The notes beneath the pieces were generated by a model. It ran no database searches. It was given only the letters and a program-made list of their open reading frames with translations, and was not told where the DNA came from. 64,000 nucleotides of DNA from Microbacterium trichothecenolyticum (lineage in GTDB: Bacteria; Actinomycetota; Actinomycetes; Actinomycetales; Microbacteriaceae): NCBI RefSeq assembly GCF_030818955.1, contig NZ_JAUTBF010000001.1, positions 3,596,001 to 3,660,000 on the forward strand, in the 5' to 3' direction. Below, one piece after another: positions 45,579-62,665 of this stretch. A program made the translations under genes and the position numbers. Numbering within the stretch: the stretch's first letter is position 1; each line of letters starts with the position of its first letter.

Positions 45579-45725
45579 ATGTCCGTTCCCTTCCTTCCGT
45601 CCGCACCGCGGCGATCGGTCCTTCCGCCGCTCACCCAGGCCCGAGCAGGCGCGCTGTTCCTCGACGACAGGGGTGCCGCGACCGCCGAGTACGCCATCGC
45701 GACCATGGCTATCGTCGCGCCCTAA
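45579..45725 (+). pseudogene. DUF4244 (Flp/TadE-associated pilin-like) gene, 5' part
   Basis: Begins at ATG 45579 with an AAGGAG RBS, and encodes 42 native residues ending AATAEYAIAT, the cleavage/processing region of DUF4244 pilin-like proteins (GAATAEYAIATxAA). From the ATG at 45705 on, the sequence is that of an inserted element, adding MAIVAP before a stop. The missing 34 residues are 16.86 kb away at 62561-62665. Joining the two at the shared ATGGC restores a perfect 76-residue DUF4244 protein. The gene is therefore split by integration, not decayed, and would be repaired by excision. Confidence 0.93.
45699..45718. other. attL of the 16.86-kb element
   Basis: GCGACCATGGCTATCGTCGC. The left half is pilin coding sequence; the right half is element sequence. 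The crossover lies within the ATGGC shared with attR (45705-45709). The integrase gene starts 23 bases further on. Confidence 0.9.
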
Positions 45726-45740
45726 TGACATACTTTTGAG

Positions 45741-47357
45741 ATGGCGAGTGAGCGCGTGGCCCTGTACGCACGACAGAGCGTGCAGGAGGACCAGGGCATC
45801 ACACAACAGTTGGAGGCGATGCGAAAACGGGCCATTGCTGAGGACTGGATCGTCGCCGGTGAATACGTGGACAACTTCACATCGGCCACGAAGGCGAGGG
45901 GCGACGGGACCGACTGGGCGCGTATGCTCGCGGACGCGGACGCCGGGAAGATTGACACGATCGTCGCAGTGAAGTCCGCTCGCCTGCTGCGTCGTGTCGA
46001 AGATGCCCTCGAAGTCACTGCACCGCGTCGCGACGTCCGCGTCGTCACCTTCGATGGCATTGACACTGCGGGGCACTGGGGCAAAGTGATCCTGCTCATC
46101 ATGACCTCCATAGCCGAAGCCGAGATCGAGGAGAAGGAGGCTCGCGCACTACCGTTCCGTGCGGCTCGACGTGAGGCAGGGCACCCGACCCCGGGGCTGG
46201 TGCCCTACGGATACAACTGGGTGTCGAACAAGGACCGTGACGATCGCGGTACGCGATATCAGGTGGTCCCGCACGAAGCCCATGCACTCCTCTACATGTC
46301 CCGTGAGCTGCGGGCGGGCGCGAAGCTCGGAGAGATCGCCAAGGCGTTGAACGACGGCACTGCACACGATGAAGATGGTGATTCACTGTCCGAGCAAACG
46401 CGGCTCACACGTCCCATCCTTAACCGCGACGGCACGGTGAAGCGGCCGGGGGCGAAGTGGACCAGCACGACCGTGCGACGCATTCTCCTGTCCCCCTTCC
46501 CCGCCGCGCTCCTGCCACCTCCGATGCCGGACGGGATGCCCTATCGCGCCGACCGTTTCACCCTCTCGGAGTGCACCCCAGGCGCGTGGGACGCGATCTT
46601 GACGGAGGATGCCGTGGCCGCCGCGCGAGGTCGTCTATTGGACTCCTCCAGGCGCACGCACGACGGGAACACCCGCGCTAAGTGGCTGCTATCCGGACTC
46701 GGTGAATGCGGCCGGTGCGGCGGGGCGTTACGCAAGTGCCAGACGAAGACGACGGCGACGAGCGTGCGCGGGTACCGGTGCACAACGGGCTGTTTCCAGC
46801 GCCCCGCAGCCTTGATCGAAGAGTACGTCGAGAACGCGGCGGTGGAGGTGCTGAGTGCCCCCGGACTGCTCGCCTGGGTCGATGATAGGCGGCACGACAT
46901 CGGCGCGCTGAGAGCGCGACGTGACGCGATTGACGCAGACGAGAAGGAATGGTTCGCTCGAGTCCAGGCAGGCACGCTTCGACCCGAACAGTGGGACGTG
47001 CTGAGCACCAAATGGGCCGAGGAACGTACACAGCTCGACGGCGACATCGCCGAGGCCGTCAGCGTCGACCCGACGGCCGCGTTCGTCGGCGCCGAGGACG
47101 TGCGCGGGCTGTGGGAGCGAATGAGCACGGCCCGGCGCCGTGCGGTGCTCGGTGCTCTGCTCCTGGGTGTCCAGGTGCATCCTGTCGGCAAGGGGCGGCG
47201 GCTCACCTCGATCGAGGCGGTGGAGGGCACCGTGACCATCATGTGGAGGCGTGCGGAGAGGCGCGTGAAGATCGATGCGGAACGCACGGTCTCCTCGGTG
47301 CGCGGCCGGGTGCCGGATGATGCGCGAGACGCCGTTGGGCGGGCGCTAGATAGTTAG
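45741..47357 (+). CDS. Serine integrase of the 16.86-kb element
   Basis: A 538-residue large serine recombinase that inserts and removes the element at the pilin gene. The resolvase domain starts directly (RVALYARQSV, catalytic Ser13; conserved GKVILLIMTSIAEAE), the recombinase domain has GYNWV...R, and a zinc ribbon follows (CGRCGGALRKC...C-T-T-G-C, about residues 318-355), then a coiled coil (about 375-445) that controls directionality. It begins 23 bases from attL, transcribed inward, the usual place. The length is typical (about 450-550). A separate excision factor is needed for reversal; the small ORFs next door are candidates only by position. Confidence 0.95.
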   Translation: MASERVALYARQSVQEDQGITQQLEAMRKRAIAEDWIVAGEYVDNFTSATKARGDGTDWARMLADADAGKIDTIVAVKSARLLRRVEDALEVTAPRRDVRVVTFDGIDTAGHWGKVILLIMTSIAEAEIEEKEARALPFRAARREAGHPTPGLVPYGYNWVSNKDRDDRGTRYQVVPHEAHALLYMSRELRAGAKLGEIAKALNDGTAHDEDGDSLSEQTRLTRPILNRDGTVKRPGAKWTSTTVRRILLSPFPAALLPPPMPDGMPYRADRFTLSECTPGAWDAILTEDAVAAARGRLLDSSRRTHDGNTRAKWLLSGLGECGRCGGALRKCQTKTTATSVRGYRCTTGCFQRPAALIEEYVENAAVEVLSAPGLLAWVDDRRHDIGALRARRDAIDADEKEWFARVQAGTLRPEQWDVLSTKWAEERTQLDGDIAEAVSVDPTAAFVGAEDVRGLWERMSTARRRAVLGALLLGVQVHPVGKGRRLTSIEAVEGTVTIMWRRAERRVKIDAERTVSSVRGRVPDDARDAVGRALDS

Positions 47358-47367
47358 GGTGACGGGC

Positions 47368-47718
47368 ATGACGCTGAATACATCACGCCACGAGCTGGCG
47401 CGTCGGCATGTCGATCTCGAAGAGACCTTCACCGCTTTGCCAGTTCATCCCGGTCTGGTCAGCGACCTGCTAAAGCTGGCGGCTACAGTCGCTGCCGACC
47501 GCAACAATCGCAAGGCCGACGGCCTCCCACCTTGCGAAGACACCGAGACGCCAGCGGAGACAGAGGCCGCGGTGCCTTCCCGGATGCCGAAGGTGCCCAC
47601 GGTAAAGCCGGTCAAGCCAGTTCCGCCAGTGAAGCCCGTACCGCCGGTGAAGCCTGTTCGGCCCGTTAAGCCAATCCAGCCCCAAGAGCGATTCACTGTG
47701 CAGGAGAGGGCCGCGTGA
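47368..47718 (+). CDS. Small protein with Pro-Val-Lys repeats
   Basis: A 116-residue protein starting 10 bases after the integrase stop (ATG 47368 with TAGGGTG upstream; a GTG at 47359 is the alternative). The N-terminal 55 residues look helical (HELARRHVDLEETFTALPVH, LVSDLLKLAATVAADRNNR). The C-terminal half is a low-complexity repeat of PVKPV/PPVKPV units, about nine Lys/Arg-Pro steps, ending QERFTVQERAA. The family is not recognised. Position next to the integrase makes it a candidate recombination directionality factor, but the sequence does not show this. The 243 bp that follow (47719-47961) hold only overlapping short frames without support. Confidence 0.65.
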   Translation: MTLNTSRHELARRHVDLEETFTALPVHPGLVSDLLKLAATVAADRNNRKADGLPPCEDTETPAETEAAVPSRMPKVPTVKPVKPVPPVKPVPPVKPVRPVKPIQPQERFTVQERAA

Positions 47719-47961
47719 CAGCGCGCGTATCGAGTTACTCACATGGCCCACCTGGCCTGCACCTGGTGGCGTGCGCGAGGCGCTCCGGACGGTGGAGAGA
47801 CGCGCCGCATAGCCTCCGCGTGCTGTCCTGCACAGGCTCTTCGCGGTCCCTTCATTGCACCGAACGAGCGCAGGCGTGCCGCTTGCTCTTCGTGCGTTCG
47901 AGAAGCGAAGTTCGGCACACCTGCGGGAGCATCGCCTAGTCGATTCTGCACAACAGTGAAA

Positions 47962-48639
47962 CTAGGACCCAGTTCTTTGCGGCCCGCCCCGTTTCGCTAT
48001 CAGGTCGCGTACTCGCATGTCGAACCTCTCGTCGGCGTCTTGATGGCGCTCGATGTACACACCCTCGTCGTCTATGTATCTCGCCAGACCGTCTTCCACG
48101 AGATCATGATTTGAGGTGTGACGGAAGATCTGGACGCCACCCTCCATCGTGCCGTGTGTCTCTACAACATCCTCGCGAGCAACGTAATCGAACAGATGGG
48201 CCAGTCTCTCGAAGCCCATCCCGTATAAGTGCTTATGCCGGTCGTGGTCCGACACGAAAATCACGCCCGTTGTGGAATCCTCATCGGCGTGTATTTGAAA
48301 CACGAAGCTGTGGATAATTTGGTTACACAAGCGGCTGACACTCAGCTCGCCGTTCGCGGGCCTACCGATGTCGTAGAAGCGCTCAGGACTGAAGCGGTCG
48401 AGCACCATGGGCGTTCGACCGGTTATGGGGTACTGACGCACCTGGTAGCGCTTACCGGGTAGCCGGGACGATGACTTGCCAGAGTCGATGAGGCGTCGGA
48501 TGGAATAAGCGCCCATCATGATGTCGCGCTCAGCTAGGAAGTAGGTGCGGCTCGTCCAGCGCTTCTGGATGTTCCAACGCCTCAGGCGTATGGCAGACTT
48601 CCACAGCTCCGCTCGCCAAGGACCAGACTCATCAATCAC
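47962..48639 (-). CDS. Unknown protein, third gene of a three-gene module
   Basis: A 225-residue soluble protein with no recognised domain. It has many His/Asp residues (VSDHDRHKHLYGMGFERLAH; EGGVQIFRHTSNHDLVE) and a basic N-terminus (IRLRRWNIQKRW). Its ATG overlaps the stop of the 4-TM gene by 4 bp (48636-48639), so it is coupled to it and made with it. A signal, TM helix or nuclease motif was not found. It ends in a tail region RDLIAKRGGPQ. As part of a sensor-membrane effector cassette it could be a regulator, antidote or adaptor; this is inference only. Confidence 0.75.
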   Translation of the reverse strand: MIDESGPWRAELWKSAIRLRRWNIQKRWTSRTYFLAERDIMMGAYSIRRLIDSGKSSSRLPGKRYQVRQYPITGRTPMVLDRFSPERFYDIGRPANGELSVSRLCNQIIHSFVFQIHADEDSTTGVIFVSDHDRHKHLYGMGFERLAHLFDYVAREDVVETHGTMEGGVQIFRHTSNHDLVEDGLARYIDDEGVYIERHQDADERFDMRVRDLIAKRGGPQRTGS

Positions 48640-49280
48640 TCGCGGAAGAGCTTCCTCGATCGCCTCGTCGGCTCGATCAGAATGCCGCGCGGCGTGTTCT
48701 CCGAGGCCTGCGTGACGGGCGCCTCGCCGGACTGCGGAACACGCGCGTTGAAGTCTGCGGCGAACATGTCGACGTAGATGATGAACAACCGGCGGATGAC
48801 CGTGGCCAAGATCAGTCCGATGTGGACGGCGACCGCGAACAGAGCACCCACGACCCAGGGGGTCACATCGGGCGTTCGGAGGCCCGGCAGGCTACCAACG
48901 AGCGCGAGCATACCTGCGAAGACAATGCAGATGAGTGCGAGATAGAGGCAGGCGGCTGCGGCGGCGCCCACGTACCGCTGGAGATCGTTACGGAAGGCAA
49001 AGGTGGCCGACTCTGCGAGCTTCACCCGGAGATTCGTCAGGAAGACAAACGCGCCGAACATCGCTCCCACGAGGAGCGAGGACGCTGGCAAGGCCACAGA
49101 CACACCATTCTGGATGTCGAGGCCCCAGGAGACCCACAGGCCAAGGCCAACCCCAGCGACAATCGGTACGCCGAACTGCACCAGGGCGGCCGCGGCGGCA
49201 CGACCTCGGGACCGTTCCGGGTCAACGAAGTTGACCCGGAAAAGTGGTCGAAGATCGTACTTCTTCTGTGCCGTCATCAC
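48636..49280 (-). CDS. Four-TM membrane protein of a RexAB-like module
   Basis: A 214-residue protein with four clear TM helices: about 30-52 (ALVQFGVPIVAGVGLGLWV), 61-83 (ALPASSLLVGAMFGAFVFL), 104-130 (AAAAACLYLALICIVFAGML) and 140-165 (WVVGALFAVAVHIGLILATV), with cytoplasmic-type basic ends (KKYDLRPLFRVNF; RRSRKLFRE). It lies 2 bases after the stop of the 318-residue gene upstream and overlaps the next gene by 4 bp. The topology and gene order (soluble protein, then 4-TM protein) match lambda RexA-RexB and the RexAB-like pairs of mycobacteriophage prophages, where the membrane protein depolarises the cell. Sequence homology to RexB is not visible. Confidence 0.78.
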   Translation of the reverse strand: MMTAQKKYDLRPLFRVNFVDPERSRGRAAAAALVQFGVPIVAGVGLGLWVSWGLDIQNGVSVALPASSLLVGAMFGAFVFLTNLRVKLAESATFAFRNDLQRYVGAAAAACLYLALICIVFAGMLALVGSLPGLRTPDVTPWVVGALFAVAVHIGLILATVIRRLFIIYVDMFAADFNARVPQSGEAPVTQASENTPRGILIEPTRRSRKLFRE

Positions 49281-49282
49281 GC

Positions 49283-50239
49283 CTACGGAGTGAGCTTGTC
49301 CAATTTGGTGGGTAGCCAGTCACTCGGGAAATTCATCCCGATCTGACCCATTAGATACTCAACGTCCGACACTGCCGCTGCGGCCAGTTCCGCTGCTGTC
49401 GGCGGCGTCGTTCCGTCCAGGGGGTAGATGAAGTGCGGGAAGTCGTTGGAGATGGACAACGCCTTCTGTCGACCGTCCTGAACGTACAGGACACGATAGT
49501 CGTCGAAGTCGGAGTCGTTGAGGGACATCCCAAACGCTCCCGTGAGCGCCAGCTTCTTGTTGTTCAACACCTTGTCTCTCACCCGCTGGATCACAGTCTT
49601 CTTGGTGAGTGAGTCAGCCAGGGTCAGCGTCACTCGCGCACGGGAGACGTGTCCCGGCGTGCCAAACGTGGGGCGCGTACCATCGATACTCGACTGGATC
49701 AGCTCGACGTGGGTCACGTCGATGTTGGTCTGACCCAAGTAGGTCGCCCAGGCGGTGCGATCGGCCATATCGGTCGTCAGCTTCAGAACCAGACCCCGGT
49801 CTTTCCAGTGGTTCTCCAGCGCGCGCACGAACGGGAACGCGTTGTTTGACCGGCCCGCGGTTGCCGCCACGATGAAGCCGTGCTTGCCGTAGCTCGGGAC
49901 GATCAACAGCAGTGGCAGGTCGTCCAAGACAGCGTCACTCGCTCCGATAGGAGTGCCGTCAGCGTTCGTGTTGGTATCGCGCACGCGTCGGACACGACCG
50001 AATTGCCCATTACTAGCGTCCACCAGGAACGACCACTGCCCATGCTGCACGGCGTCTACGCCGAAGTACGTCAATCGATCGTCGTCGCGGGTGCTGGAGT
50101 CGATGAGTGCCTTTAGAGCGTCCCGGAAGAGGCCCTGCGCGCCGTCAGTGTGCAGCCCCACATTGTCGAAGTCGTACCGCTCACTGGGCGCTCTGCGCTT
50201 GCCCAATTCAACCTGAAAGATTCGGTACCCGTATGCCAC
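49283..50239 (-). CDS. Unknown soluble protein, first gene of a RexAB-like module
   Basis: About 318 residues when started at GTG 50239 (VAYGYRIFQV, with GGGGGG nearby as RBS); the frame is open to an ATG at 50359, which would leave only 38 bp to the divergent gene. The N-terminal part (YGYRIFQVELGKRR; YFGVDAVQHGQWSFLVD) and the centre (LPLLLIVPSYGKHGFIVAAT; HWKDRGLVLKLTTDMADRT) look like a mixed alpha/beta protein; the C-terminus ends MNFPSDWLPTKLDKL. No catalytic motif is obvious. As the leading soluble gene before a 4-TM protein in an integrated element it occupies the place of RexA, the sensor of phage DNA. Family unknown. Confidence 0.78.
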   Translation of the reverse strand: MAYGYRIFQVELGKRRAPSERYDFDNVGLHTDGAQGLFRDALKALIDSSTRDDDRLTYFGVDAVQHGQWSFLVDASNGQFGRVRRVRDTNTNADGTPIGASDAVLDDLPLLLIVPSYGKHGFIVAATAGRSNNAFPFVRALENHWKDRGLVLKLTTDMADRTAWATYLGQTNIDVTHVELIQSSIDGTRPTFGTPGHVSRARVTLTLADSLTKKTVIQRVRDKVLNNKKLALTGAFGMSLNDSDFDDYRVLYVQDGRQKALSISNDFPHFIYPLDGTTPPTAAELAAAAVSDVEYLMGQIGMNFPSDWLPTKLDKLTP

Positions 50240-50397
50240 GCTGCTGCCCCCCGGACTTGTTTCCAGAATCTTGGCACAGGCGATGACGCCTTGGGCATCA
50301 CCACTGCCCAGTCGCGGAAGCCTCGTCGGGTGGCGGCCGGTTAAGGGCATCGATCCCACCGGAGCATCCGAGACTCTTCTGCCGCTACGATTCGTCG

Positions 50398-51054
50398 ATG
50401 GACGCGGCTCGCATGCTAGACGAGTTGAGGACCCAGCACTGGACCAGCGCCATCGGCGACCCCGCGGAGATAGAGATCACTCTGGTCGTGCACGGGTTGG
50501 CCGCCGCACGGACACAGAGGGGGCATTTTCGCCAAGTCCTGCGACCTGCATCCGCGGGGGATGCCGCGCCGAACACAATGAGCGCCATTTTTGGCAACGG
50601 GGAGCAGCCGCTGCACACAGACGGGGCGCACTTGCAGCAGCCGCCCGACGTTATCCTTCTCGCGAGCGCGGAACCCAACCTCACGCCCACCCGTGTCTGG
50701 AGCGGCGCGCAGCAAGTGCCAGGAACCTCTGCGATCATCACGAATTCGCACCCAGAGTTCGCTCGCCATGGGTTGTTCGTCGTCCGTAACGGTCGCGATT
50801 CTTTCCTGTCCCCAGCGTTCGACTGGATGCGACTGCGGGTCGATCCCGCCTGTATGAGTCCCGCCGACGGATACGCGCGACAGGCCGCCGAGTATTTCCA
50901 GAATCTGCCCGCGTTCGAGTTTCACTGGGATGTTCCGCAGAAGGTGCTCCTCATCGACAACTTGTACGCGTTGCATGGTCGAACCGCCGTTTCGGCTGAG
51001 GATGCCGGTCGCGGTCTGGAACGCCGCTCGTACATCTGGGGGGCAGCCTCGTGA
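50398..51054 (+). CDS. Small TauD-like 2OG-Fe(II) dioxygenase
   Basis: A 218-residue protein with the iron-binding facial triad His73-x-Asp75 (LHTDGAHLQQPPD) and His193 (NLYALHGRTA), and a C-terminal Arg (Arg209/210 in ERRSYIW) where TauD/TfdA enzymes bind 2-oxoglutarate. It is shorter than typical TauD enzymes (about 280). The WSGAQQVPGTSAII region corresponds to the lid. It is divergent from the RexAB-like module and overlaps the downstream HEPN gene by 4 bp (51051-51054), so the two proteins are made together. The substrate is unknown; a modified nucleic acid, amino acid or small molecule is possible. Confidence 0.82.
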   Translation: MDAARMLDELRTQHWTSAIGDPAEIEITLVVHGLAAARTQRGHFRQVLRPASAGDAAPNTMSAIFGNGEQPLHTDGAHLQQPPDVILLASAEPNLTPTRVWSGAQQVPGTSAIITNSHPEFARHGLFVVRNGRDSFLSPAFDWMRLRVDPACMSPADGYARQAAEYFQNLPAFEFHWDVPQKVLLIDNLYALHGRTAVSAEDAGRGLERRSYIWGAAS

Positions 51055-51956
51055 GCCGCGTTCGCCCGTTCGACAGCGATGGTCTGTGGCTCAAAGCTCG
51101 GTTGTTCATCAACCGCGCCCTTGACGATTCGACTGCTTTCGAGGAGGCGGCGTTCTGGGCGTGTTGTTCGCTTGAGTTGCTCGGTAAAGCCGCACTGTCC
51201 CGCATCAACCCAGCTTTGATCGCCAACCCTATGGACGACGGTCGCAGCATACTGATCGCGAGCGGCGTCATCGAAGATTTCGACGGCTTCCTGTCAGTAC
51301 AGGCCAAGACCGTGTGGGCGCGCTGTTCTCGGTCGTTCCGGCAGTTCAATGCGGACGAGGCGAGGGAGATCTCGCTCGGCAGGAATGCCTACATTCACTC
51401 CGCTTCGATCGGCTTCGACGTACTCGGTCCAGCAGAGTGGTGGCCTCGCTTCTGGGCGCAGGCCAACGTGCTGATAGCTCACTGCGATTCGACCATCGAG
51501 GAATTTGTCGGACCGACTCGGGCGAAGACTGCCGAGAGCCACCTACAGACCAACCGCGCCAATCTCAGTCGCCGATTGGAGTCACAGTTGGACTCTGCTC
51601 GACTACGTCTTCGAATGCACGAGTCCGGCAACATGACCGGCCAGATGCGCCGGGAGTGGTCTCGTTTTTTCCTCGACTATCCCTCCTACACAGGCGAGGT
51701 GGACTGCCCCGCTTGCGGGAACGTTGCGAAGGTCGGAGGCGAGGAGGTGGAAGAGCGGAGGCTCGAACGCTTCGAATTCGACGATGTGGCCCTCACGCTG
51801 GTGGTCTGGACGGTCTACCTCGGCTGCGAGCACTGCCACCTAGAGCTGGTCGATGTTGACCTCCTAGACGCCGCAGGCATCCCGTCTGCGTTCGAAGTGG
51901 AAGGAAGCGGCGAGGACATCGCCGACCTCTATGACAGCGAGTACAACAACGAGTAA
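51051..51956 (+). CDS. HEPN-like protein with C-terminal zinc ribbon
   Basis: A 301-residue protein. An all-helical N-terminal half (about 10-150) carries R-N-A-Y-I-H (Arg111, His116), the Rx4-6H motif of HEPN RNases, in LGRNAYIHSASIGFD. The C-terminal half has a four-Cys zinc ribbon (Cys219, Cys222, Cys259, Cys262: CPACGN ... CEHC), which may bind nucleic acid. GTG start overlapping the dioxygenase stop. HEPN domains with this motif are RNase effectors in many toxin-antitoxin and anti-phage systems. The pairing with a 2OG dioxygenase is not one I can assign to a described system. Confidence 0.78.
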   Translation: MSRVRPFDSDGLWLKARLFINRALDDSTAFEEAAFWACCSLELLGKAALSRINPALIANPMDDGRSILIASGVIEDFDGFLSVQAKTVWARCSRSFRQFNADEAREISLGRNAYIHSASIGFDVLGPAEWWPRFWAQANVLIAHCDSTIEEFVGPTRAKTAESHLQTNRANLSRRLESQLDSARLRLRMHESGNMTGQMRREWSRFFLDYPSYTGEVDCPACGNVAKVGGEEVEERRLERFEFDDVALTLVVWTVYLGCEHCHLELVDVDLLDAAGIPSAFEVEGSGEDIADLYDSEYNNE

Positions 51957-52024
51957 GCAAAACCTAGACGCGCCGCCATCAACCTGTTGAGGCCAACTCA
52001 GTCGCCGATCCGTCTCGTCTTCGA

Positions 52025-52777: not shown

Positions 52778-52849
52778 GGCCCGAATCTATCTCGCGCGTC
52801 TGTTGTCGGCGCCTCGCACAGCTTCTCGAATCCGTCGCTCTCCGTGTTA

Positions 52850-53296: not shown

Positions 53297-53479
53297 GGTT
53301 TCCTCATCTTCTGTGGCACTGATCGATCATCTGGGTGTCTTGCAGCATCCGGGCGTGCCAACTGCCGCTCGTGCTCCAGAGCTGAGCGCAGACGTGGCAC
53401 CCTGTTGGCGCCGCTGACATTCCTAGTTGTGCTGTAATTACATAACATAGCTCGACCCCATCCCGGGTTGCGTTGTCGA

Positions 53480-53761
53480 GTGCCCGAAGGACCGATCCCT
53501 GACCCAAACTTTGACGCTCTCCGACTACACCTCGCTCAGCTTCGTGCGGAGCGCGGCTGGTCGTTCGACGAGCTTGCCGCTCGGGCTGGGATCGGTCGGG
53601 CGACGCTGGTGACGCTGGAATCAGGTAAGGCACGGGCGACTACCGCCGGCCCTGCATCGCAAGGGACCTTGGCGACTTGGTGGAAGATCGCCACGGCGCT
53701 CGGGGTGAGTCTCGAAGAACTGACACGTCCCCTGTATGAGGGCACCGGTCTCGACGTCTAG
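53480..53761 (+). CDS. XRE-family helix-turn-helix regulator
   Basis: A 93-residue DNA-binding protein. The helix-turn-helix is LRAERGWSFDELAARAGIGR followed by ATLVTLESGKARATTAGPAS at about residues 22-60, with LATWWKIATALGVSLEELTRP completing the domain. The start is taken as GTG 53480; a TTG at 53468 is also in frame. The upstream AT-rich stretch (TGTAATTACATAACATAG, 53434-53451) is a likely promoter. It is the only repressor-type protein in the element and may set its dormant state or control the neighbouring cargo. Confidence 0.82.
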   Translation: MPEGPIPDPNFDALRLHLAQLRAERGWSFDELAARAGIGRATLVTLESGKARATTAGPASQGTLATWWKIATALGVSLEELTRPLYEGTGLDV

Positions 53762-53839
53762 AAGGACGGTGTCGGACGCCCTTGTAAGCACGCTGGCTAC
53801 CCATGCCAGGCTCAGGGTGAGAGCGACCGCAGGAAGCGC

Positions 53840-54224: not shown

Positions 54225-54263
54225 GCCGTCAGGCGGTAAGCGCTCTCATGGCACGACGGGGTT

Positions 54264-54479: not shown

Positions 54480-54520
54480 GGCCAGACAGTAGCCCCGTCG
54501 CGGCCCGCCCTCGTGCATGC

Positions 54521-55246: not shown

Positions 55247-55320
55247 GGGCGGCACCATACCGGGCCGTGACGCGAGAGAGGCCCCCGCCGCCCCACGAGA
55301 CGCGCCAAGGGCCTGGGCGG

Positions 55321-56257
55321 TCAGCTCAGCACGGATGCCACGGCGTAGGCGCTGCTGCGCTCCAGGCGGGCACGGGCGCGATCGTATCGGCGGGTCGTGC
55401 GGGGGTCGGCGTGGCCCATTGAATCCTGGAGGTCGCGGAGGGGTACCCCGGCGTCCAGGGCGAGGGTCGCGTGCGTGTGACGAAGGCCGTGCGGCGACAC
55501 CTGGCCCTCGATGCCCGCGGCTCGCGCCAGGCGCTGGACAGTACGGAACGCCTCGGATGCGGCCCAGCGCTTGCCTGTGCTCGTGGTGAAGATCGGCGCG
55601 TCCGTCTGCGCGGAGGCGTTCGTGATGACCTCGGCCCCTTGGGCGGTGGATGCGCCGAGATATGCGGCGAGGGCATCCAGAACGGGGGCGGGTAGGGCGA
55701 TCTTGGCGCGCTTGCCACCCTTGCGGGAGACGACGAGCACGCGGTGGCCGGTGTCGTGCTGGAGGTCGTCGTGGGTGGCGGCGAGAGCCTCGGAGATGCG
55801 CACGCCCGTGTGCACGAGAAGCGCGGCGAGGGCACGGGATCGGGGGCCGTCCTTGGCGGCGGCATCCAGGAACGCGACGGCCTCGGTCTTGGACAGTCCA
55901 CGGGTCGAGCTGTGGTCCGCATCCACACGGGGGGCGGATGACGCGGCGCACCGGGTGCGGGTCGTCGGCGGACATTGCGCCCTCCTCGGCGGCGTAGCTG
56001 TAGAACGACGAGGCCGCAGACAACTTGCGGGCGGTGGTCGAGGCCGCACCTGTCAGGGTGCTGCGCCATAGGTCGACGTGGCGGCGCTGAGCCTGGAGGG
56101 CGTCCACGCCGCCGGAGTCGAGGAACGCGAACAGCTCGTGAAGATCGCGACGGTAGGCGCGGCGGGTGTTCTCGGAGGCGAGCGAGAGGAGCCATTCGCC
56201 TGCGAGGCCGCCGTGCCGTTCGGCGTTGGTCGAGCCGTGGGTGGCGAGCGTCGTCAT
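55321..56257 (-). pseudogene. Tyrosine recombinase, frameshifted
   Basis: The N-terminal SAM-like core-binding domain is in one frame from ATG 56257 (MTTLATHGSTNAE; SENTRRAYRRDLHELFAFLD) to about 55935, and the catalytic domain in the next frame down to 55321. The catalytic set is complete: Arg in HTGVRISEAL, Lys in SRKGGKRAKI, HGLRHTHAT, MGHAD and nucleophile Tyr in TTRRYDRA. The two parts join if the G6 run at 55929-55934 (C6 in the coding strand) has one base fewer, giving RRVIRPRVDADHSSTRGLS. Whether this is a sequencing error, a mutation or phase variation is open. A whole protein would be about 311 residues. Confidence 0.85.
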
Positions 56258-56298
56258 ACACACATGATAACTGACATTATCGTGTGTGTATGACGATG

Positions 56299-56541
56299 CT
56301 AGTCGTCGTCCAGGCCGTACAGGCCGGCAGACCGACAAACCAGGCCACCGAGCACGCCATAGACCTTTCCGGCGAGGTTGGCGAGCGCGAGAGCACGGCA
56401 CTGCGTCAGGAGGGGGCACCCACGACACACCAGCTTCAACGCCGCGGGGTCGCTCTCATCGCTCGTGAAGCGGCTGTCGCCATGGCACGCTGGCGACGTC
56501 GTGCGCAGGGCCACCTGGAGCGCGGCGAACGCCTGCGCCAC
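56299..56541 (-). CDS. WhiB-family iron-sulfur regulator
   Basis: An 80-residue WhiB-like protein. Four cysteines for a [4Fe-4S] cluster: Cys19, then Cys39-x2-Cys42-x5-Cys48 (CRGCPLLTQC), followed by the G-V-L-G-G turn (residues 62-66, usually GVWGG) and a short C-terminus without the basic AT-hook. It is phage/plasmid-like in size. GTG start. It stands 41 bp upstream of the recombinase gene on the same strand and probably regulates element genes. Confidence 0.85.
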   Translation of the reverse strand: MAQAFAALQVALRTTSPACHGDSRFTSDESDPAALKLVCRGCPLLTQCRALALANLAGKVYGVLGGLVCRSAGLYGLDDD

Positions 56542-56577
56542 GGTCGGGGCGTCGGCGGTCTTCGCCCAAGGCGCGGC

Positions 56578-57222
56578 TCAGCCGTCCGAGAGGCCGTCGG
56601 CCAATCGCACGAGGCGGTCGACCTCGCTGTCGCCGCTGGTGGCGCCGTCGTCCATGGTGGCCGCCAACGCGACGAGTCGGTCGACCTCGCGAGCGTCGCC
56701 GGTGGTCGCCCTGGCTGCCACGTAGCTGTTGTCGATCATCGGAGCGGTGGAGGCCGACAGGCTGAGGAGCTTATCCAGGCGGGCCGCCTCGGCTGCGGTG
56801 ACGTCCTTCCCCTCGATCGGTCGCCCGCCGGTGCGCTCGCCGATCTTGGCCAGGAGCTTTTCCAGCTCCGTCTGGTTCTCGGGGGTCACGGCGGCGACAT
56901 CGAGCCATTCGCGGATCGCGTCGACCTGCTCGGCGCTCCAGCCGATGACCTCGACGACGCCGCCCACGCTATCGACGAGGACGTGCACCGCCTTGCCAGC
57001 GCGGGCGAGGAGCACGGGCGCGCCATCGATCTTCGTCGCCCGCGCCTCGAAGCTGCGGGGCAAGCGGATGACGTGGGCACCGACGGCATGCGCGGTCGCC
57101 TTTGGATCAGTCGGAGCGGGCGCGAGGAACGTCGGACGCACCATACGGAGGTCGTCCGGCTTGCCGGTCGGCTGAGCACCCGTGATGTTCGCCGGAAGGC
57201 GGAGGGGGGTGAGGTTGGTCAT
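56578..57222 (-). CDS. Hypothetical mobile-element protein
   Basis: A 214-residue acidic protein of no recognised family. Begins MTNLTPLRLPANITGAQ; the centre has a beta-rich part (DGAPVLLARAGKAVHVLVDS) and the C-terminus is helical with two similar stretches, REVDRLVALAATMDDGA and SEVDRLVRLADGLSDG, suggesting a short internal duplication. It is part of the minus-strand series 56.3-60.4 kb. Confidence 0.6.
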   Translation of the reverse strand: MTNLTPLRLPANITGAQPTGKPDDLRMVRPTFLAPAPTDPKATAHAVGAHVIRLPRSFEARATKIDGAPVLLARAGKAVHVLVDSVGGVVEVIGWSAEQVDAIREWLDVAAVTPENQTELEKLLAKIGERTGGRPIEGKDVTAAEAARLDKLLSLSASTAPMIDNSYVAARATTGDAREVDRLVALAATMDDGATSGDSEVDRLVRLADGLSDG

Positions 57223-57231
57223 GGCGGACTC

Positions 57232-57585
57232 CTACGAGTTGGTGGGAAACAACGTGCGGCGGAGGCGCACGAGGACGTCGGCAGGGACGCCTGTCAGCTC
57301 GCGCACACCGCCGCGGGTGCCGACGAGAACGTGGAGACGGCTGTGGTCCTGGGAGCTGCCGCGACGGGTGTCGAGCACGTAGCAGTGGTCGATCCCCCGG
57401 GACCGTCCGAAGGCGATGCCGATGCCGCCGGGGAGCCGGTGCTGGTGCCCGCCGAGGAAGACGAACGGCCCCTGCGCGTCGCCCAGGATCGTGGGGTGCA
57501 CGAGCTGCTGGTCGCCCACGACGAGGCTGTCGAGCGCGTAGGCGTCGGGCGCGCCCTGGGCGAGCTTGGAGCTGATGTCGCGCAT
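57232..57585 (-). CDS. Hypothetical mobile-element protein
   Basis: A 117-residue protein not recognised. It is mixed alpha/beta (FVFLGGHQHRLPGGIGIAFG, HSRLHVLVGTRGGVRELTG) with several His residues, which may be coincidence. Its stop is 9 bases before the start of the 214-residue gene downstream, so both are likely co-translated. The 239 bp upstream (57586-57824) hold a hairpin-rich spacer: GCCCCTCGACGG/GCTCGCCGGG-type stems and a CCCCTGC...GCAGGGG inverted repeat at about 57783-57826, a probable terminator of the gene upstream. Confidence 0.55.
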   Translation of the reverse strand: MRDISSKLAQGAPDAYALDSLVVGDQQLVHPTILGDAQGPFVFLGGHQHRLPGGIGIAFGRSRGIDHCYVLDTRRGSSQDHSRLHVLVGTRGGVRELTGVPADVLVRLRRTLFPTNS

Positions 57586-57824
57586 GGTCGTCCTGTCGTG
57601 GTGGGAGGGGAGCTGGGCGCCCGGGAAAGGTTGAGCCAGGCGCCCGGCCGTCGAGGGGTGCCCCGCTCGCCGGGAGACCCTCCAGCGAGCGGGGCGTGAC
57701 GCCGGGTCCTGACTCCCGGGTCGCCGCCGCAGATCGCCATGCCCAGCGAGATGCGACGGAGCTTGTGTTGAGTTGTGGCCTGCCCCTGCTCGGCGATGTC
57801 CGGACTCCGAGAAGGGGCAGGGGC

Positions 57825-58217
57825 TTAGGGGGTCGAGCTGCTGCGCAGGAGCTTCGCGAAGTCCGTGAGGGACAGGACGACGAGCGAGTCACCAACCGAT
57901 CGGCCGCTGCGCCACTGGCAGAAGGCCGCCACAGGCTTGCCGGTGATGTCGGCGCCGACGCGGGCGCGGTCCAGGTCGTCCCAGGGCCGGAAATCCTGCC
58001 TGCTCGTGACGTTCACGTAGATGCCGTCGAGGCCGCGAACGTCGCCGTCAAGGCCGTTCTCCAGACCGGCGGCGAGCGCGTCGCTGATCTTGGACCCACG
58101 GGCTAGGAACGGCTTCGGGGTGGCGGGAAGTCCGGCGTCCTCCAGGAAGGTGCTCACGAGCTGCACGACACCTCTGTGCATGGCGCGGTTCACGTTGCCG
58201 ATGGCGGCGCTCATCAT
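57825..58217 (-). CDS. Hypothetical mobile-element protein
   Basis: A 130-residue protein starting at ATG 58217 (MMSAAIGNVNRAMHRGVVQL), overlapping the stop of the gene upstream by 4 bp. The middle GSKISDALAAGLENGLDGDV and the segment YVNVTSRQDFRPWDDLDRAR look conserved-type but are not assigned. The series is typical of plasmid or phage accessory genes. Confidence 0.6.
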   Translation of the reverse strand: MMSAAIGNVNRAMHRGVVQLVSTFLEDAGLPATPKPFLARGSKISDALAAGLENGLDGDVRGLDGIYVNVTSRQDFRPWDDLDRARVGADITGKPVAAFCQWRSGRSVGDSLVVLSLTDFAKLLRSSSTP

Positions 58218-58798
58218 CGGCCCCGAGGGAGGTCGCCGTCGTCGCCGCGGTAGACCGTCGAGGAGCTGTTGGACGCGGGCGGCCCCCCGAATCGGGCGTT
58301 CACTGCGGCGATCGCGTCGGCGCGCTCGTGCGGGTCTCCCAGGGCAGCGGCGGCCAGCATGGCGCGCTCGCGAGCCTCGCTCCAGTCGCGGTCGCCTCTT
58401 ACCCAGGGTTCCATCCCCACGGGGCGGGGACCGGGAACGATAACGACGTGACCCCAGCGCCGCATCTGCTCCGACGGGTCGTGGACGAGGGCCAACCATC
58501 CCGGCTGACCGAGGCGGTTCCGTGCCGCCTCGCGGTGACGCTCGGTGATCACCAGCTCATCGCCGCGGGTCATCGGGCGGTTGCCGGGGCCGCCGAAGAG
58601 TTCGTGATCCAGGGACTGCGGCACCGAGAAGCCGGACCGCACGAAGTGGACGGTCTCACCGACCTGGGCCACACGGGGGCCGTCGTCGGGGGCGGCGGGG
58701 TCCGCGGTGGCGGCGGCCTTGCGCTCCGCAAGTTCTGCGGCCTCGGCGCGCAGGGCGGCCAGGCGTTCCTGGGCGGGGGTGAGAGTCGAGTCGGTCAT
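58214..58798 (-). CDS. Hypothetical mobile-element protein
   Basis: A 194-residue protein with an N-terminal coiled coil (TPAQERLAALRAEAAELAER, residues 8-27), a beta-rich middle (GETVHFVRSGFSVPQSLDHE; DELVITERHREAARNRLGQP) and a helical C-terminal region. It overlaps the gene upstream and the one downstream by 4 bp each. In layout it resembles small actinophage proteins of unknown role. Confidence 0.6.
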   Translation of the reverse strand: MTDSTLTPAQERLAALRAEAAELAERKAAATADPAAPDDGPRVAQVGETVHFVRSGFSVPQSLDHELFGGPGNRPMTRGDELVITERHREAARNRLGQPGWLALVHDPSEQMRRWGHVVIVPGPRPVGMEPWVRGDRDWSEARERAMLAAAALGDPHERADAIAAVNARFGGPPASNSSSTVYRGDDGDLPRGR

Positions 58799-59364
58799 GC
58801 GGATGCCTCCGGGGCGTCGGTGCGAGTGCTGTCGAGAAGGTCGTCGGCGAGGTCGTCTCGGTCTCGACGGTGAAGATCGGCGGCAAGGAGTGCGGCCAGC
58901 TCGGGGTGCTGCTGGGCGACGGTGAGCGCACTCCGGGCGAGCACGGCCACGCCCTGCTGGAGGAACACGTCGGCCTCGGTGTCGATCCCTGCCCCGCCGA
59001 GTGCCTGGAGGGCGCGTAGCTCGCTGTCACCGGCCGCGAGGACGCCACGGCGGTCCCGGGCCTCCTGCGCCTCCAGGGCGGTCTCCCTTGCACGTCGAGC
59101 GATGTCGACGACGCGAGCCGCGATCGAGGTCGCGTCGAGACCGTGCGCTCGTGCGACCTCCTCAGCGATCGCTGCCGGAAGGTGACCGCCCTGCACGTGG
59201 CGCCGGATGGAGTCACGGCTGGGCATCTCGTGATTGCGCGAAATGCGCGCAATGCTGTGACCGGCGAGGAGGGCCTGCTCCAGCCGCGATCGACGAACGG
59301 GATCGAGAGAACAGCACTCACAGCGACGCCCACGACGGGCGGGGGCTGCTGCTAGTGCGTTCAT
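58795..59364 (-). CDS. Zinc/HTH-type small DNA-binding protein
   Basis: A 189-residue protein with C-E-C-C near the N-terminus (RRCECCSLDPVRRSRLEQAL) followed by a helix-turn-helix (GHSIARISRNHEMPSRDSIR, then RHVQGGHLP). The pattern C-x-C/C-x2-C...G-x-S...I-x-R...S-x2-S-I-x-R-H...H-L-P is common in small regulators and in terminase-small-subunit-like proteins of actinobacterial elements. A long helical tail follows. It is the first gene of the coupled trio 58795-57825. Confidence 0.65.
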   Translation of the reverse strand: MNALAAAPARRGRRCECCSLDPVRRSRLEQALLAGHSIARISRNHEMPSRDSIRRHVQGGHLPAAIAEEVARAHGLDATSIAARVVDIARRARETALEAQEARDRRGVLAAGDSELRALQALGGAGIDTEADVFLQQGVAVLARSALTVAQQHPELAALLAADLHRRDRDDLADDLLDSTRTDAPEASA

Positions 59365-59446
59365 GTCGACTCTCCCTCACCTCAAGATGTCGACCCACGC
59401 GCTGCGATCGTGCATCGAATCGCGTATCCCGCGCGTGTCGGGATGC

Positions 59447-60403
59447 TCAGCCCCTGCCCGAGGCCAACCATTTGTCGAAGTCGATTGGAGATTCAGAGGT
59501 GGGGGGATCCAGGCGGACGTGGGCGGTGTCGGCGTTGCGGGAGAGGGTGCCGTACTGGCGTACAAGACCGCGGTGTCGTGCTGCGTCGAGATACTCCCGG
59601 TATGCGAGGAGGTCGTCTGCATCGCCCGCGTGTGCTCCAGCGAGAAGATCACCGGGGTACCGACCCAGCTTTGTTTCCGGGGCGCGCTTCAGGAGCGTCT
59701 GCTTGGTGACGTACTCGGCCATGTCGTCGGCGCTGAGATCGTCCCGCATCCAGGAGAACGTCTGTAGGTGTTCTGCGGCGTCATGGCCCAGGTGACGAGC
59801 GGCACGTACCCACCGGGCGGTTACGGCCTGCTGAAGGCGCCGACGGCCTGCTGGAGAGGAGTTCTGGTCGAAGGTGAGGATGACGTGGGAGTGCACGTTC
59901 CAGCCGTCTGAGGTCTTCGTCAGCTCCTCAGTGACGGCGTACCCGGTAATGCCGTGCTGTTTCTTGAAATGAGACCAGTCCCCCCTCTTCGTGAACCGAA
60001 CGAGGATCGCATCGAGGTCCGACCACTCCTCGGCCAACGGCTTCGTGTCGTGGCGGAACGTCAGCGACACCATGACGGCGGCGGGCGCTACGCGCAGGGC
60101 TGCCGCAAGGGTGGCTTGACGCTCGGCCATGCGGTAGACGGAGCACGTGACGCACCGGAGGGTGCTGTCGCACTCGTGCCCACGACGGCAGAGGCGCACG
60201 GTGTTGTCGTCTACCAGCGCCCTGTTCCACTCATCCTGGGATGCATTCTGAGCACTCTCTTTGACCACGAGAAAACGGAGCGACGGCGGGCGCTCATATT
60301 TTGCACGTGACGCACTAACCAAACGGAGAGGGTCGTCGGTGCGGTAGTCGAAGGGCACACGCCGAGGAGTGCGCGGGTATGGGTGATCGTCTACGATCGT
60401 CAC
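59447..60403 (-). CDS. Rolling-circle replication initiator (HUH Rep)
   Basis: A 318-residue Rep with start GTG 60403 (CGGAGATG lies 9 bases upstream; the frame is open to 60496). A zinc finger (Cys72, Cys78, Cys84, Cys87) precedes motif 1 VMVSLTFRHD, motif 2 WNVHSHVIL with the metal-binding His171-x-His173, and motif 3 with nucleophile Tyr231 in AEYVTKQ. This arrangement is that of Streptomyces/Arthrobacter-type Rep proteins (Rep_1 group) of pIJ101-like plasmids. It indicates that the excised element can replicate as a circle. It heads the minus-strand gene series. Confidence 0.85.
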   Translation of the reverse strand: MTIVDDHPYPRTPRRVPFDYRTDDPLRLVSASRAKYERPPSLRFLVVKESAQNASQDEWNRALVDDNTVRLCRRGHECDSTLRCVTCSVYRMAERQATLAAALRVAPAAVMVSLTFRHDTKPLAEEWSDLDAILVRFTKRGDWSHFKKQHGITGYAVTEELTKTSDGWNVHSHVILTFDQNSSPAGRRRLQQAVTARWVRAARHLGHDAAEHLQTFSWMRDDLSADDMAEYVTKQTLLKRAPETKLGRYPGDLLAGAHAGDADDLLAYREYLDAARHRGLVRQYGTLSRNADTAHVRLDPPTSESPIDFDKWLASGRG

Positions 60404-60616
60404 AAGAGAACATCTCCGTAAGCCGCCACTGACCTTGGTACGTCGGGGGCGGCTTTCTCTTTGCCCACGGGCGGATGTCGCCGACAGTACACGCATTCTG
60501 AGATGTATGCTCTCACCAGGTATTTAGTGCGCGTTACGCACTAGTCTTATCCCCAGGGTTCTCCCCAGTTTCGTCCACAGGCGGCACGGTTCCGTCGCCG
60601 TCGACATGATGGAGCC
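60404..60616. promoter_or_regulatory. Intergenic region upstream of rep, possible origin/control region
   Basis: It contains the inverted repeat TAGTGCG-CGTTA-CGCACTA (60525-60543), a DnaA-box-like TTATCCCCA (60547-60555, one mismatch to TTATCCACA) and a related TCCACAGG at about 60574. The word ACGCACTA recurs at 60309-60316 inside rep. It is a divergent region between rep and the gene at 60617 and must hold both promoters. Origin function is inference. Confidence 0.4.
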
Positions 60617-61582
60617 GTGGACGACGAACGCGAAGAGCGGGAAGACCAGTCAGAGATCTTTCGAGACTCGTGGCGCCGCCTTGCATGGGTAGAGGCACAG
60701 GTGGATCGCGTGCAATCCCTAACCCAGCCTTGGGATGAGATGCCCCGCTATGCACGGCTAGAAGGTCATCTTCACGAGGAAACCGTGCGCAAGGGCTACT
60801 TCGAGTTCTCGGTGAGCGTGACTGAGCTAGCCCACCCCGCCGAAGAGGTGAACTTCCGGCTGGGCAACATCGTCACGGACGCCCGCTCCTGCCTCGATAT
60901 GGCGATAGAGCAGATCTGGAAGGAGTACGGCATCGATCGGAGCTTCGGCAGGAAGGGGACGTTGACGGTCCAGTTCCCACTGGAGGACAACTTCGAGGAG
61001 AAGCGCAAGAGCGAACGCTTGCAGGCGTTCCTGGCTCGCATGGACGAGCGTTTTGTCGAGGTCATCGAGGCGGCCCAGCCCGATTACACGATGCGTGACA
61101 TACCCGGCAACATCTCGGCCCTCTTCATCCGCAACTTCTCGAACGCTAACAAGCATCGGAACATCACGCCCGTGCAAGTCGTCCAAGATCACGTCAGCAC
61201 GGGTACGAACGGCTACGGTCTCAAACTGGACCGGATCGGGGACCCTCAGGTAGAGAAGGACTTGCGATTCGCGCTGACGTACAAGTCCGAGCACTATTCC
61301 GAGTCCGAAGCGCGTTCGTGGCTCCCCATTCTTAACGATCTGCGGGCGTGCCCTATTCACGTCACTGTGATGCAACGGCTGGTCGTGACCGGCGACGAGC
61401 TGCTCATCTATCCGCCACGCCTCGGTGGCCAAGGCGTGCCATGGCGAGCGGAGCTGGACGATCTTCTGCGCCAGGTCCCGGCTTACGTGCGCCTCACGCT
61501 GCGAAATCTCAACCGTGTGCACAACATCATCCGTGAGGGTGGCGACGCCTTCTACATGCTCGACTGGGATGGCGCACTATGA
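60617..61582 (+). CDS. Helical protein of a common actinobacterial unknown family
   Basis: A 321-residue soluble protein, GTG start. The order is: charged N-terminus; LGNIVTDARSCLDMAIEQIW (a helix seen in many proteins annotated only as hypothetical, there SALDxxA); LTVQFPLEDN; IEAAQPDYTM; then IRNFSNANKHRNITPV with the conserved L-x-N-x-x-K-H-R element. This fold is HEPN-like in helix pattern, with the K-H-R in the place of a catalytic His, but the assignment is tentative. It is common in mobile islands and next to defence genes. The following membrane-protein gene starts 68 bp downstream. Confidence 0.65.
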   Translation: MDDEREEREDQSEIFRDSWRRLAWVEAQVDRVQSLTQPWDEMPRYARLEGHLHEETVRKGYFEFSVSVTELAHPAEEVNFRLGNIVTDARSCLDMAIEQIWKEYGIDRSFGRKGTLTVQFPLEDNFEEKRKSERLQAFLARMDERFVEVIEAAQPDYTMRDIPGNISALFIRNFSNANKHRNITPVQVVQDHVSTGTNGYGLKLDRIGDPQVEKDLRFALTYKSEHYSESEARSWLPILNDLRACPIHVTVMQRLVVTGDELLIYPPRLGGQGVPWRAELDDLLRQVPAYVRLTLRNLNRVHNIIREGGDAFYMLDWDGAL

Positions 61583-61650
61583 AGACGTCTTGACGCGGGC
61601 CGAGCAAGTGCCGCATCAAGTCGTGCTGACGGCGTGGCAGGATCTGCGCC

Positions 61651-62520
61651 ATGGGGAATCTCTTCGACCGACTGACGGGGCGCGCTGAACGTAGAGTGAG
61701 TCAACGCTCTGAAACACCAGCTAGAGACGCCCCCACGCCGCTGTCAGACCGCCCACCCGGCCCCGCGGACGAGTTGCTTCCGATCAAGTTGGGGCGGGCG
61801 CTTCTGGACGCGCGCTGGCAGGCAGACCCCAGCTACAAGTCGATGGTCACTCGTCACACATGGATTGTGGGACTAGCAGTACTCCTCTTCCTTGGTGCAA
61901 TCGCCTCCGCGTTGTTGATCCCAAGTGAGGTGATCAGTGGCCCCATGGTCGGAGTGCTAGCTGGCCTTGCCGTCGTAGTTGCATACGCCGCCGGACTTTA
62001 CGTGTTCTGGGACAGGGCGCGCCGACGGAGAGTATTTCAGGCGCTTGTCGCGATGGGCATGGCTGGCCAACTCCAGGAACGAGAGCGGGATCTCGCCCAG
62101 TCCGGAGAGCCACTGAGCCTCGCCGCACTCTGGTCCGTGACGCAGGAACGCATCGAGTATTACCACCAGATTGTGACCACTCAATCTGAGGTGAGCTTCC
62201 GCAACGGGGCCATCACCAGTTACCTGGGGCTGGGCCTGCTGCTGACCCTTGCGGTTGTGGCCATTTTCGCTGCTGGAAACCTGGCCACCTCGATAACTAT
62301 CGGCGTCCTCGGGGCGGTTGGAGCGGCCCTGTCCGGCTACCTCGGTGCAACCTTCATCAAGCTTCACACCGAGTCGTCCGCTCAGCTGCGTGAGTTCTTC
62401 TCTCAGCCTGTCGAGTTCTCCCGTCTGCTCGGCGCCGAGCGGTTGATCGAATCTCTTCCGCCGACAGAGAGAGCTGAATCGGTCCAACTAGTGATCCGCG
62501 CCATGATGGGCGATGACTAA
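61651..62520 (+). CDS. Membrane protein, TRADD-N-associated-domain-like
   Basis: A 289-residue protein with four TM helices in two pairs (about 72-92, 97-118 and 186-208, 213-235). Between them lies a helix with LAALWSVTQERIEYYHQIVT, and QSEVSFRNGAITSYLG runs into the third TM. This TQxRLxxYHxI...QSxxSFRxA layout is what I remember for proteins annotated with a TRADD-N-associated membrane domain, which is linked to bacterial conflict systems with death-like adaptor domains. The N-terminus is polar (Pro/Asp-rich) and the C-terminus is a short helical domain. It is the last gene of the element, 34 bases from attR. Confidence 0.6.
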   Translation: MGNLFDRLTGRAERRVSQRSETPARDAPTPLSDRPPGPADELLPIKLGRALLDARWQADPSYKSMVTRHTWIVGLAVLLFLGAIASALLIPSEVISGPMVGVLAGLAVVVAYAAGLYVFWDRARRRRVFQALVAMGMAGQLQERERDLAQSGEPLSLAALWSVTQERIEYYHQIVTTQSEVSFRNGAITSYLGLGLLLTLAVVAIFAAGNLATSITIGVLGAVGAALSGYLGATFIKLHTESSAQLREFFSQPVEFSRLLGAERLIESLPPTERAESVQLVIRAMMGDD

Positions 62521-62554
62521 GCGAGACTGCGCGCGGTAGACCTGTCGAAAAACT

Positions 62555-62574
62555 GCGACGATGGCGGCCGTCGC
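62555..62574. other. attR of the 16.86-kb element
   Basis: GCGACGATGGCGGCCGTCGC. The left half is element sequence and the right half is pilin coding sequence. Core ATGGC at 62561-62565, shared with attL. Confidence 0.9.
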
Positions 62575-62665
62575 CTTCGCCGGGCTGCTGGTCATCATCA
62601 TGCGCAGCGACGAGGTGCGCGGAATTCTCACGGAGCTGGTGCGTCGCGCGTTGACGGTGCAGTGA
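62561..62665 (+). pseudogene. DUF4244 pilin-like gene, 3' part
   Basis: 34 codons from ATG 62561 to the TGA at 62663-62665: MAAVAFAGLLVIIMRSDEVR, then GILTELVRRALTVQ. This is the hydrophobic helix and C-terminus of DUF4244. Joined to residues 1-42 encoded at 45579-45704 it gives a complete 76-residue protein. Its stop overlaps the tadE start by 4 bp (GTGA), as in an intact tad operon, so the following genes are cut off from their usual promoter by the insertion. Confidence 0.93.

Follow-up and report, generated by a model that had tools for sequence, protein, structure and literature searches.

The closest described parallels to the locus reported here are the prophages of Streptococcus pneumoniae that insert in comYC, and phage A118 of Listeria with its attB in comK. 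For the pneumococcal prophages, the loss of DNA uptake was argued to protect the prophage against being removed through recombination (PMC4774983). In A118, the two central bases of the site alone set the direction, and both deletion and inversion arose with mutants whose core was symmetric (PMC3556126). Bxb1 with an engineered GC core was reported to form the two products equally in vitro (PMC10661055). The symmetric cores in these two studies were mutants or engineered sites, and a natural symmetric core was named in the available parts of neither PMC3783163 nor PMC4111918. On the host side, tad deletion mutants of Micrococcus luteus lost transformability together with the surface Flp pilin, for which a processing site G/XXXXEY was described (PMC4322843). 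Here we describe a 16,856-bp element with a large serine integrase in a 64,000-nt stretch of the Microbacterium trichothecenolyticum genome (the window, to whose positions all coordinates refer), where it splits the DUF4244 pilin gene of a tad (Tad/Flp pilus) locus.

A serine-integrase element in the Tad pilin gene

The left and right attachment sites of the element, attL and attR, start at 45699 and 62555, a distance of 16,856 bp. The 5' part of the DUF4244/Flp prepilin gene (45579..45709, + strand) comprises 43 codons and the GC of Ala44, including a G/XXXXEY-type processing site, and the 3' part (62564..62665, +; PF14029, 8.7e-11) comprises 33 codons and the stop. When the flanks were joined, the two parts formed one open, in-frame DUF4244 reading frame of 76 codons. 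The sequence-only reading of this DNA had already recognized the element, its length and the rejoining of the halves, all of which were confirmed; its division of the gene into 42 and 34 codons was corrected, as the crossover falls in the first two bases of Ala44. Both halves matched PF14029, over profile positions 21–53 (above the cut-off) and 6–27 (under it), and no third match in the genome reached E 0.001, a weak one appearing at E up to 10. The Flp_Fap pilin family PF04964 was matched neither by the rejoined pilin nor elsewhere in this genome at E up to 10. The rejoined pilin of 76 amino acids (aa) contained DDRGAATAEY, which fits G/XXXXEY, and a hydrophobic stretch (both identified by eye). 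Together with its length (50–80 aa) and its location in a tad locus, these are the features by which Flp/Tad pilins are defined (PMC4322843).

The order of genes at the locus was tadA, a tadB/C-like gene, the small pilin gene, a TadE-like gene, a TadE/G-like gene and a topoisomerase I-like gene near 63411, the last labelled by eye; the gene at the same place in the relative G151 matched PF01131. The Tad pilus ATPase gene tadA (43344..44624, +) scored 386.6 bits with TIGR03819 (cut-off 373.15) and matched PF00437; these are the coordinates of the open reading frame (ORF) as listed, and the real start probably lies further in. The tadB/C-like membrane protein was encoded by a single T2SSF ORF (44576..45508, +; PF00482, E 1.3e-10) without an NCBIfam match. 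Downstream of the element, the TadE-like minor pilin (62662..63021, +) matched NF041390 (TadE_Rv3655c, E 1.9e-8) and PF07811, both under the cut-off, and the TadE/G-like protein (63021..63341, +) matched the Rv3654c family TIGR03816 above and PF13400 under the cut-off. The insertion indeed parts tadE/tadG from tadA/BC, as had been read from the sequence before.

The integrase gene (45741..47357, +) lay directly after attL, 31 bp separating its start codon from the crossover. It encoded 538 aa with an N-terminal resolvase catalytic domain (PF00239, E 2.5e-18) and the RQSV motif, whose catalytic Ser13 was invariant in all 15 aligned integrases, including that of the window. The long C-terminal DNA-binding part with a zinc domain, as in large serine integrases, was covered by phrog_95 (residues 3–508), and the integrase family profile matched solved integrases over most of their length, for example 9iu2 and the catalytic domain of TP901-1. 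A Pfam zinc-ribbon match stayed under the cut-off and the Pfam Recombinase domain was not matched. That a mobile element has inserted here, and that it sits in the pilin gene, we regard as virtually certain.

The same gene was found split in other genomes. DUF4244 was searched in 295 same-genus genomes, sampled from a larger group at one genome per species, and genomes were graded by their best match as intact-scoring (E 1e-17 or better) or of fragment strength (E 6e-12 to 1.5e-4). A proposed check had been whether relatives carry the gene whole, which most did by score: 268 genomes were intact-scoring, 25 were of fragment strength, and two incomplete genomes had no match at 0.01. The count of 25 is a lower bound, since an intact DUF4244 would mask a split one in the same genome; when completeness of at least 90% and contamination of at most 5% were required, it was 22 of 272. 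Both pilin parts were recovered in 21 of the 25, either 7.9–66 kb apart or on different contigs (G045, G270), and one part only in G041, G042, G068 and G123. The lone fragments in G041 (L103), G042 (L099) and G068 (L102) are perhaps decayed insertions. Fifteen of the 21 split genomes were cut at the same codon as in the window and had a neighbouring integrase of the same family. Conversely, a related integrase (E 1e-30) occurred in 20 same-genus genomes and lay at the pilin in these 15; in the other five (G010, G021, G035, G160, G234), the integrases were more distant and the pilin was intact-scoring.

A scan of named genomes with the integrase alignment gave 25 loci, 19 with a DUF4244 half beside the integrase (weak in L139, E 1.6e-4, and L145, E 0.03) and six without. 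Six of the 19 duplicated genomes of the same-genus set, and the 13 new ones brought the total to 28 insertions (15 + 13). The new loci were from Microbacterium (L128, L137), another member of the Microbacteriaceae (L127), Brachybacterium (two), and one each from Brevibacterium, Leucobacter, Salinibacterium, Labedella, Leifsonia, Naasia, Herbiconiux and Scrofimicrobium. In the integrase tree, the six integrases not at the pilin formed a single starred group (100/99) between two pilin-targeting groups; as the root was only a midpoint, we make no claim on which target came first. The rejoined core was clean in all 20 insertions with both junctions, the window included, and the 3' part ran 32–34 codons to the stop in 23/23 insertions having that side. 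The sequence-only reading had placed the element correctly, and understated how often this gene is the target of one integrase family and of two further groups (see below). Phage and plasmid records (63 phages, one plasmid) contained distant integrases, all with <60% identity (24–32% among the 30 of the 63 phage records listed), and no free phage of the family was among them.

Three side observations concern individual insertions. Beside the lone fragment of G041 (L103), a piece without a Pfam match resembled the C-terminal part of an integrase by eye. The Herbiconiux integrase (L140:9974-11652) occupied two ORFs of 402 and 157 aa, apparently by a frameshift, and this insertion may be fixed. 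In G053 and G208 (L062:17716-19221, L057:17691-19340), the 5' pilin fragment remained open, in frame, into the integrase, for 512 and 509 codons past the core, so that the tad operon could give rise to a protein fusing pilin and integrase.

Crossover core, direction and attachment sites

Of the 28 insertions, 20 had both junctions at hand. In these, attL and attR had 2–12 bases in common, a stretch that contained GC in all 20; in three (G053, L133, L136), it was exactly GC. This dinucleotide, at 45708..45709 in attL and 62564..62565 in attR of the window, was taken as the putative crossover core by analogy with A118, whose integrase exchanges DNA at a pair of central bases (PMC3556126), as large serine integrases do. 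The position of the core was fixed beforehand by the pilin codon; the alanine codon by itself therefore supplies GC on both sides, and the evidence lies in the shared stretch including GC. Since GC is its own reverse complement, such a core cannot set the direction of insertion.

The insertions indeed faced both ways. The integrase adjoined the 5' half of the pilin gene in 18 and the 3' half in 10 of the 28 insertions (two-sided p 0.18 versus 1:1). An asymmetric, direction-fixing core, which is usual in the studied members of the group and not part of its definition, was not found; the putative core was palindromic and the directions stood at 18:10. On a tree of 31 integrases, 25 of them with a direction (L139, L141 and L145, all <300 aa, were left out), direction required eight changes versus a mean of 7.6 in shuffled data, and 396 of 500 shuffles were as low, suggesting that direction is independent of integrase phylogeny. 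Eight integrase pairs were picked by hand, five with opposite and three with the same direction. Four of the opposite-facing pairs were 92.8, 90.4, 93.7 and 93.9% identical (G260 took part in two of them), and the fifth, the window with G096, was 54% identical; the same direction was found in the close pairs G208/L127, G089/G133 and L126/L141.

If one attP had joined opposite halves of attB, the integrase-proximal arms of such a pair would be expected to match each other best, which, of five opposite-facing pairs with both junctions, was the case only for G062/G235 (21/34 versus 15–16). The other comparisons make the picture mixed. The pairs G208/G260 (10), G151/G208 (11) and G270/G208 (12) showed no preference for the inner arm in an ungapped comparison, the arm block of G208 being shifted by one base as judged by eye, and the inner arm of the window fitted the outer arm of G096 better (23 versus 15). 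In the window/G096 pair, the att site may be turned relative to the integrase gene. Overall, we consider it very probable that GC is the core and carries no directional information. The centre of symmetry given by the sequence-only reading held, and what it had missed was the palindromic GC core and the insertions facing both ways.

That reading had also described symmetric sites of 20 bp. The symmetry was borne out by the comparison of arms, and the 20 bp proved to be the centre of longer sites. Conserved positions in 48 attP arms reached about 26 bases from the core, with a GT.G block at positions 5–8 and a GGCATACTT-like block at 18–26. In the window, the column conservation over these 48 arms places the arm P' on the integrase side at 45710..45735 (+, approximately 26 bp), and junction comparison together with arm conservation places the far arm P at 62538..62563 (−, approximately 26 bp). 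The two attP arms of one element matched at 15.05 of 27 positions on average over the 20 insertions, compared with 6.9 for shuffled arms (largest mean in 2000 shuffles, 8.5) and 5.8–7.4 when shifted by 1–4 bases. The attB arms matched at 9.75 of 20 positions (3.4–5.0 when shifted by 1–4). These data point to an attP of approximately 54 bp, in line with the A118 attP minimum of 50 bp (PMC3556126).

In many of the inner arms, a −10-like block (C..A.T at arm positions 20–25, mostly CATACT) preceded an ATG by six bases (45729-45743 in the window). It was present in 22/28 inner and 9/20 outer arms, and an ATG at positions 32–34 in 17/28 and 1/20, respectively. The block resembles a promoter, located inside attP, for a leaderless transcript of the integrase gene, and binding of the integrase to attP could repress its own gene.

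Proposed loss of the pilus and alternative explanations

We hypothesize that the attB lay within the Flp/Tad prepilin gene (DUF4244), where a large serine integrase recombined it with an attP of approximately 54 bp, the cut falling on the GC of a conserved alanine codon within the processing and membrane segment of the prepilin. Owing to the palindromic GC, the integrase would be blind to direction, and elements of the family would come to lie in either orientation. The insertion would take out the only DUF4244 pilin found in the genome and part tadE/tadG from tadA/BC, leaving the cell without the pilus. The pilus is presumed to serve as a DNA-uptake device and hence to be a target worth inactivating for elements: a host unable to import DNA could not replace the element through homologous recombination. 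Excision would be expected to restore the pilin gene. We consider this account, direction-blind insertion at the pilin GC with pilus loss protecting the element, probable as a whole, with reservations; for its step that the element benefits through the loss of DNA uptake, the case is nearly balanced and leans slightly to the negative.

Several points weigh against it. M. luteus needs both of its tad clusters (PMC4322843), and one tad locus is considered here. A ComEC-domain gene was present in this genome, beside a ComEA-like gene (HHH_3 and SLBB above the Pfam cut-offs, the comE model TIGR01259 under its cut-off); as the ComEC domain was also matched in 10 of 14 control genomes, including Escherichia coli, it is weak evidence for DNA uptake. 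Of the 5' parts, 20 of 25 had an in-frame ATG within 400 bases. For Microbacterium, Tad pili and DNA uptake are predicted from genes, and a gain to the element and its excision are presumed. A highly conserved, dispensable gene would also make a good neutral target.

This last point leads to the main rival, in which the pilin gene is a neutral safe harbour: its conserved codons would offer a widely available attB, pilus loss would be cheap under the conditions in which these strains live, and the targeting would serve host range rather than inactivation. Consistent with it, T-M/L-A-A-V-A-F-A-G was constant in 30 intact pilins and the crossover falls on two fixed bases of an alanine codon; the 30 pilins came from 35 loci tried, mostly the best-scoring DUF4244 matches, and are a biased sample. 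The gene is, however, probably not useless to its hosts, which mostly keep it (268/295 intact-scoring), and further integrases use it as well. G148, G205 and G257 carried long serine integrases with 38–49% mutual identity and weak matches to the others compared, and their junctions shared AT one codon earlier than the site of the window (by eye); G045 had the same DUF4244 match boundaries and a recombinase-domain ORF. In G091 the gene was cut near the V-V-I-M codons and in G201 near A-F (by eye), in both by serine integrases with 41% mutual identity. Three serine-integrase groups were found to cut one 230-bp gene at four points, although there are many other conserved genes. A neutral harbour appears possible but doubtful. 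It is a tentative suggestion, toward which we lean less than halfway, that unrelated elements across actinobacteria converged on breaking the Tad/Flp major pilin as a counter-defence against DNA uptake, with a naturally palindromic crossover in the main integrase family and with direction given up since only the break matters.

Some features of these further groups were noted separately. In G148, G205 and G257 (L104, L105, L106), the 3' end of the integrase gene rather than its start lay at the junction, and the ORF overran the pilin remnant. Their shared core was apparently AT (by eye), also a palindrome, and the direction was the same in 3/3. A tyrosine integrase, guessed at G091 from a longer shared stretch, was rejected, as the neighbouring gene encoded a large serine integrase.

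The cargo of the split sites bears on a second alternative, superinfection exclusion. Tad pili are phage receptors in Caulobacter, and elements that break the pilin might keep competing phages out. Terminase and portal genes were found in G091 and G201, with head and tape-measure genes also in G091, a large-terminase match in G205 and a tape-measure match in G148; prophages are among the inserted elements, as this explanation would have it. No pilus-dependent phage of these hosts was found, and no search aimed at one was made. The site is used by small and conjugative elements too, which argues against it: G070 encoded a conjugative coupling protein and G208 a Mob_Pre relaxase, and 13 small elements (6.4–9.7 kb) included seven in a cluster with an AAA_25 member and four in a cluster with a primase-polymerase member (one protein of each cluster was scanned). 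The inserted elements comprise prophages, conjugative or mobilizable elements and small elements, and exclusion of competing phages seems an unlikely reason for the choice of target.

In a third alternative, the insertion is a reversible switch (active lysogeny) from which the host benefits, conditional excision restoring pilin and pilus. The comK prophage of Listeria, whose excision restores the gene under some conditions, is the model. The intact integrase frame and junctions of the window element and the clean rejoined core in all 20 complete insertions would permit excision. No excision factor was identified in the element, and the sharing of the site by very different elements points to targeting rather than co-evolved regulation. 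We judge a switch very unlikely, and favour the account of direction-blind insertion with loss of the pilus.

Gene content of the element and comparison with described systems

Directly 3' of the integrase, a proline-rich ORF of 119 aa (47359..47718, +) had no family match in Pfam, PADLOC or PHROGs. Three adjacent minus-strand genes followed (225, 214 and 358 aa; 47962-50359), one with apparent membrane stretches; they had no family match in Pfam or PADLOC and are possible cargo. A TauD-like dioxygenase ORF (50398-51054) matched a short part of its family just above the cut-off. Further genes encoded a Cro/C1-type regulator (53468..53761, +; PF01381), an internal tyrosine recombinase (55321..56049, −; PF00589, phrog_1), a protein weakly similar to the small terminase (58795..59364, −; PF20901 just under the cut-off, phrog_1482 with E 4.4e-5) and a putative replication protein (59447..60496, −; phrog_11698, a PHROG of unknown function, an HSH motif by eye, and no Pfam or NCBIfam match). 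The small terminase-like protein clustered with a G096 protein that itself lacked any family match, and the ORFs of the tyrosine recombinase and the replication-like protein clustered with ORFs of the G120 element. The presence of these last two genes in a serine-integrase element suggests a phase as a replicating circle. Two putative cargo genes at the right end (60617..62520, +) had no family above the cut-off, and no PADLOC match to defence genes was obtained at E 0.01 among the 10 element proteins scanned.

No capsid, portal, large terminase or conjugation gene was detected among the 19 ORFs searched with Pfam, 10 of which were also searched with PHROGs. Apart from the one weak small-terminase match, the structural and packaging genes of a prophage were not found. 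Since no structural phage gene or conjugation gene was found, the window element may be a satellite or an integrative replicon.

If the proposed account is true, the view that mobile elements escape removal by switching off DNA uptake would extend to the high-GC Gram-positives, where they would act on the Tad/Flp pilus. Natural serine integrases of this kind, symmetric at the core and represented by numerous paired att sites, would also allow a test, outside the laboratory, of the rule that the two central bases alone set the direction. Integration vectors for organisms with few tools may profit from the target as well, the gene being split in ten named genera. The literature listed contained, by title, no report of serine-integrase or prophage insertion into a DUF4244, Tad or Flp pilin, which leaves novelty unproven, and the papers mentioning DUF4244, judged by title and the start of the abstract, included none on insertion.

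The locus itself resembled tad-2 of M. luteus (PMC4322843) in gene order and motif, with tadA, a fused tadB/C, a 77-aa pilin with G/XXXXEY and then tadE/F and tadG; the pilin gene is intact there and split here. As with the comYC prophages (PMC4774983, PMC12637031), related integrases were recurrently found in a major pilin gene, in several species and genera. Unlike the comYC case, which concerns a DNA-uptake pilus, the target here is a Tad/Flp pilin of actinobacteria with a presumed role in uptake, hit by three serine-integrase groups and several types of element. With Listeria A118 and its attB in comK (PMC3556126), the pilin elements shared a large serine integrase, a predicted two-base crossover, insertion in a gene linked to competence and a similar attP, that of A118 being imperfectly palindromic with a 50-bp minimum. 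Whereas the asymmetric core of A118 (GG) sets its direction, the pilin elements, with a putative palindromic GC, occurred in both directions in nature. In this they resembled Bxb1 with its engineered GC core (PMC10661055), which also recombined in both orientations; there, GC is a laboratory variant, whereas in the pilin elements it appears to be the natural core.

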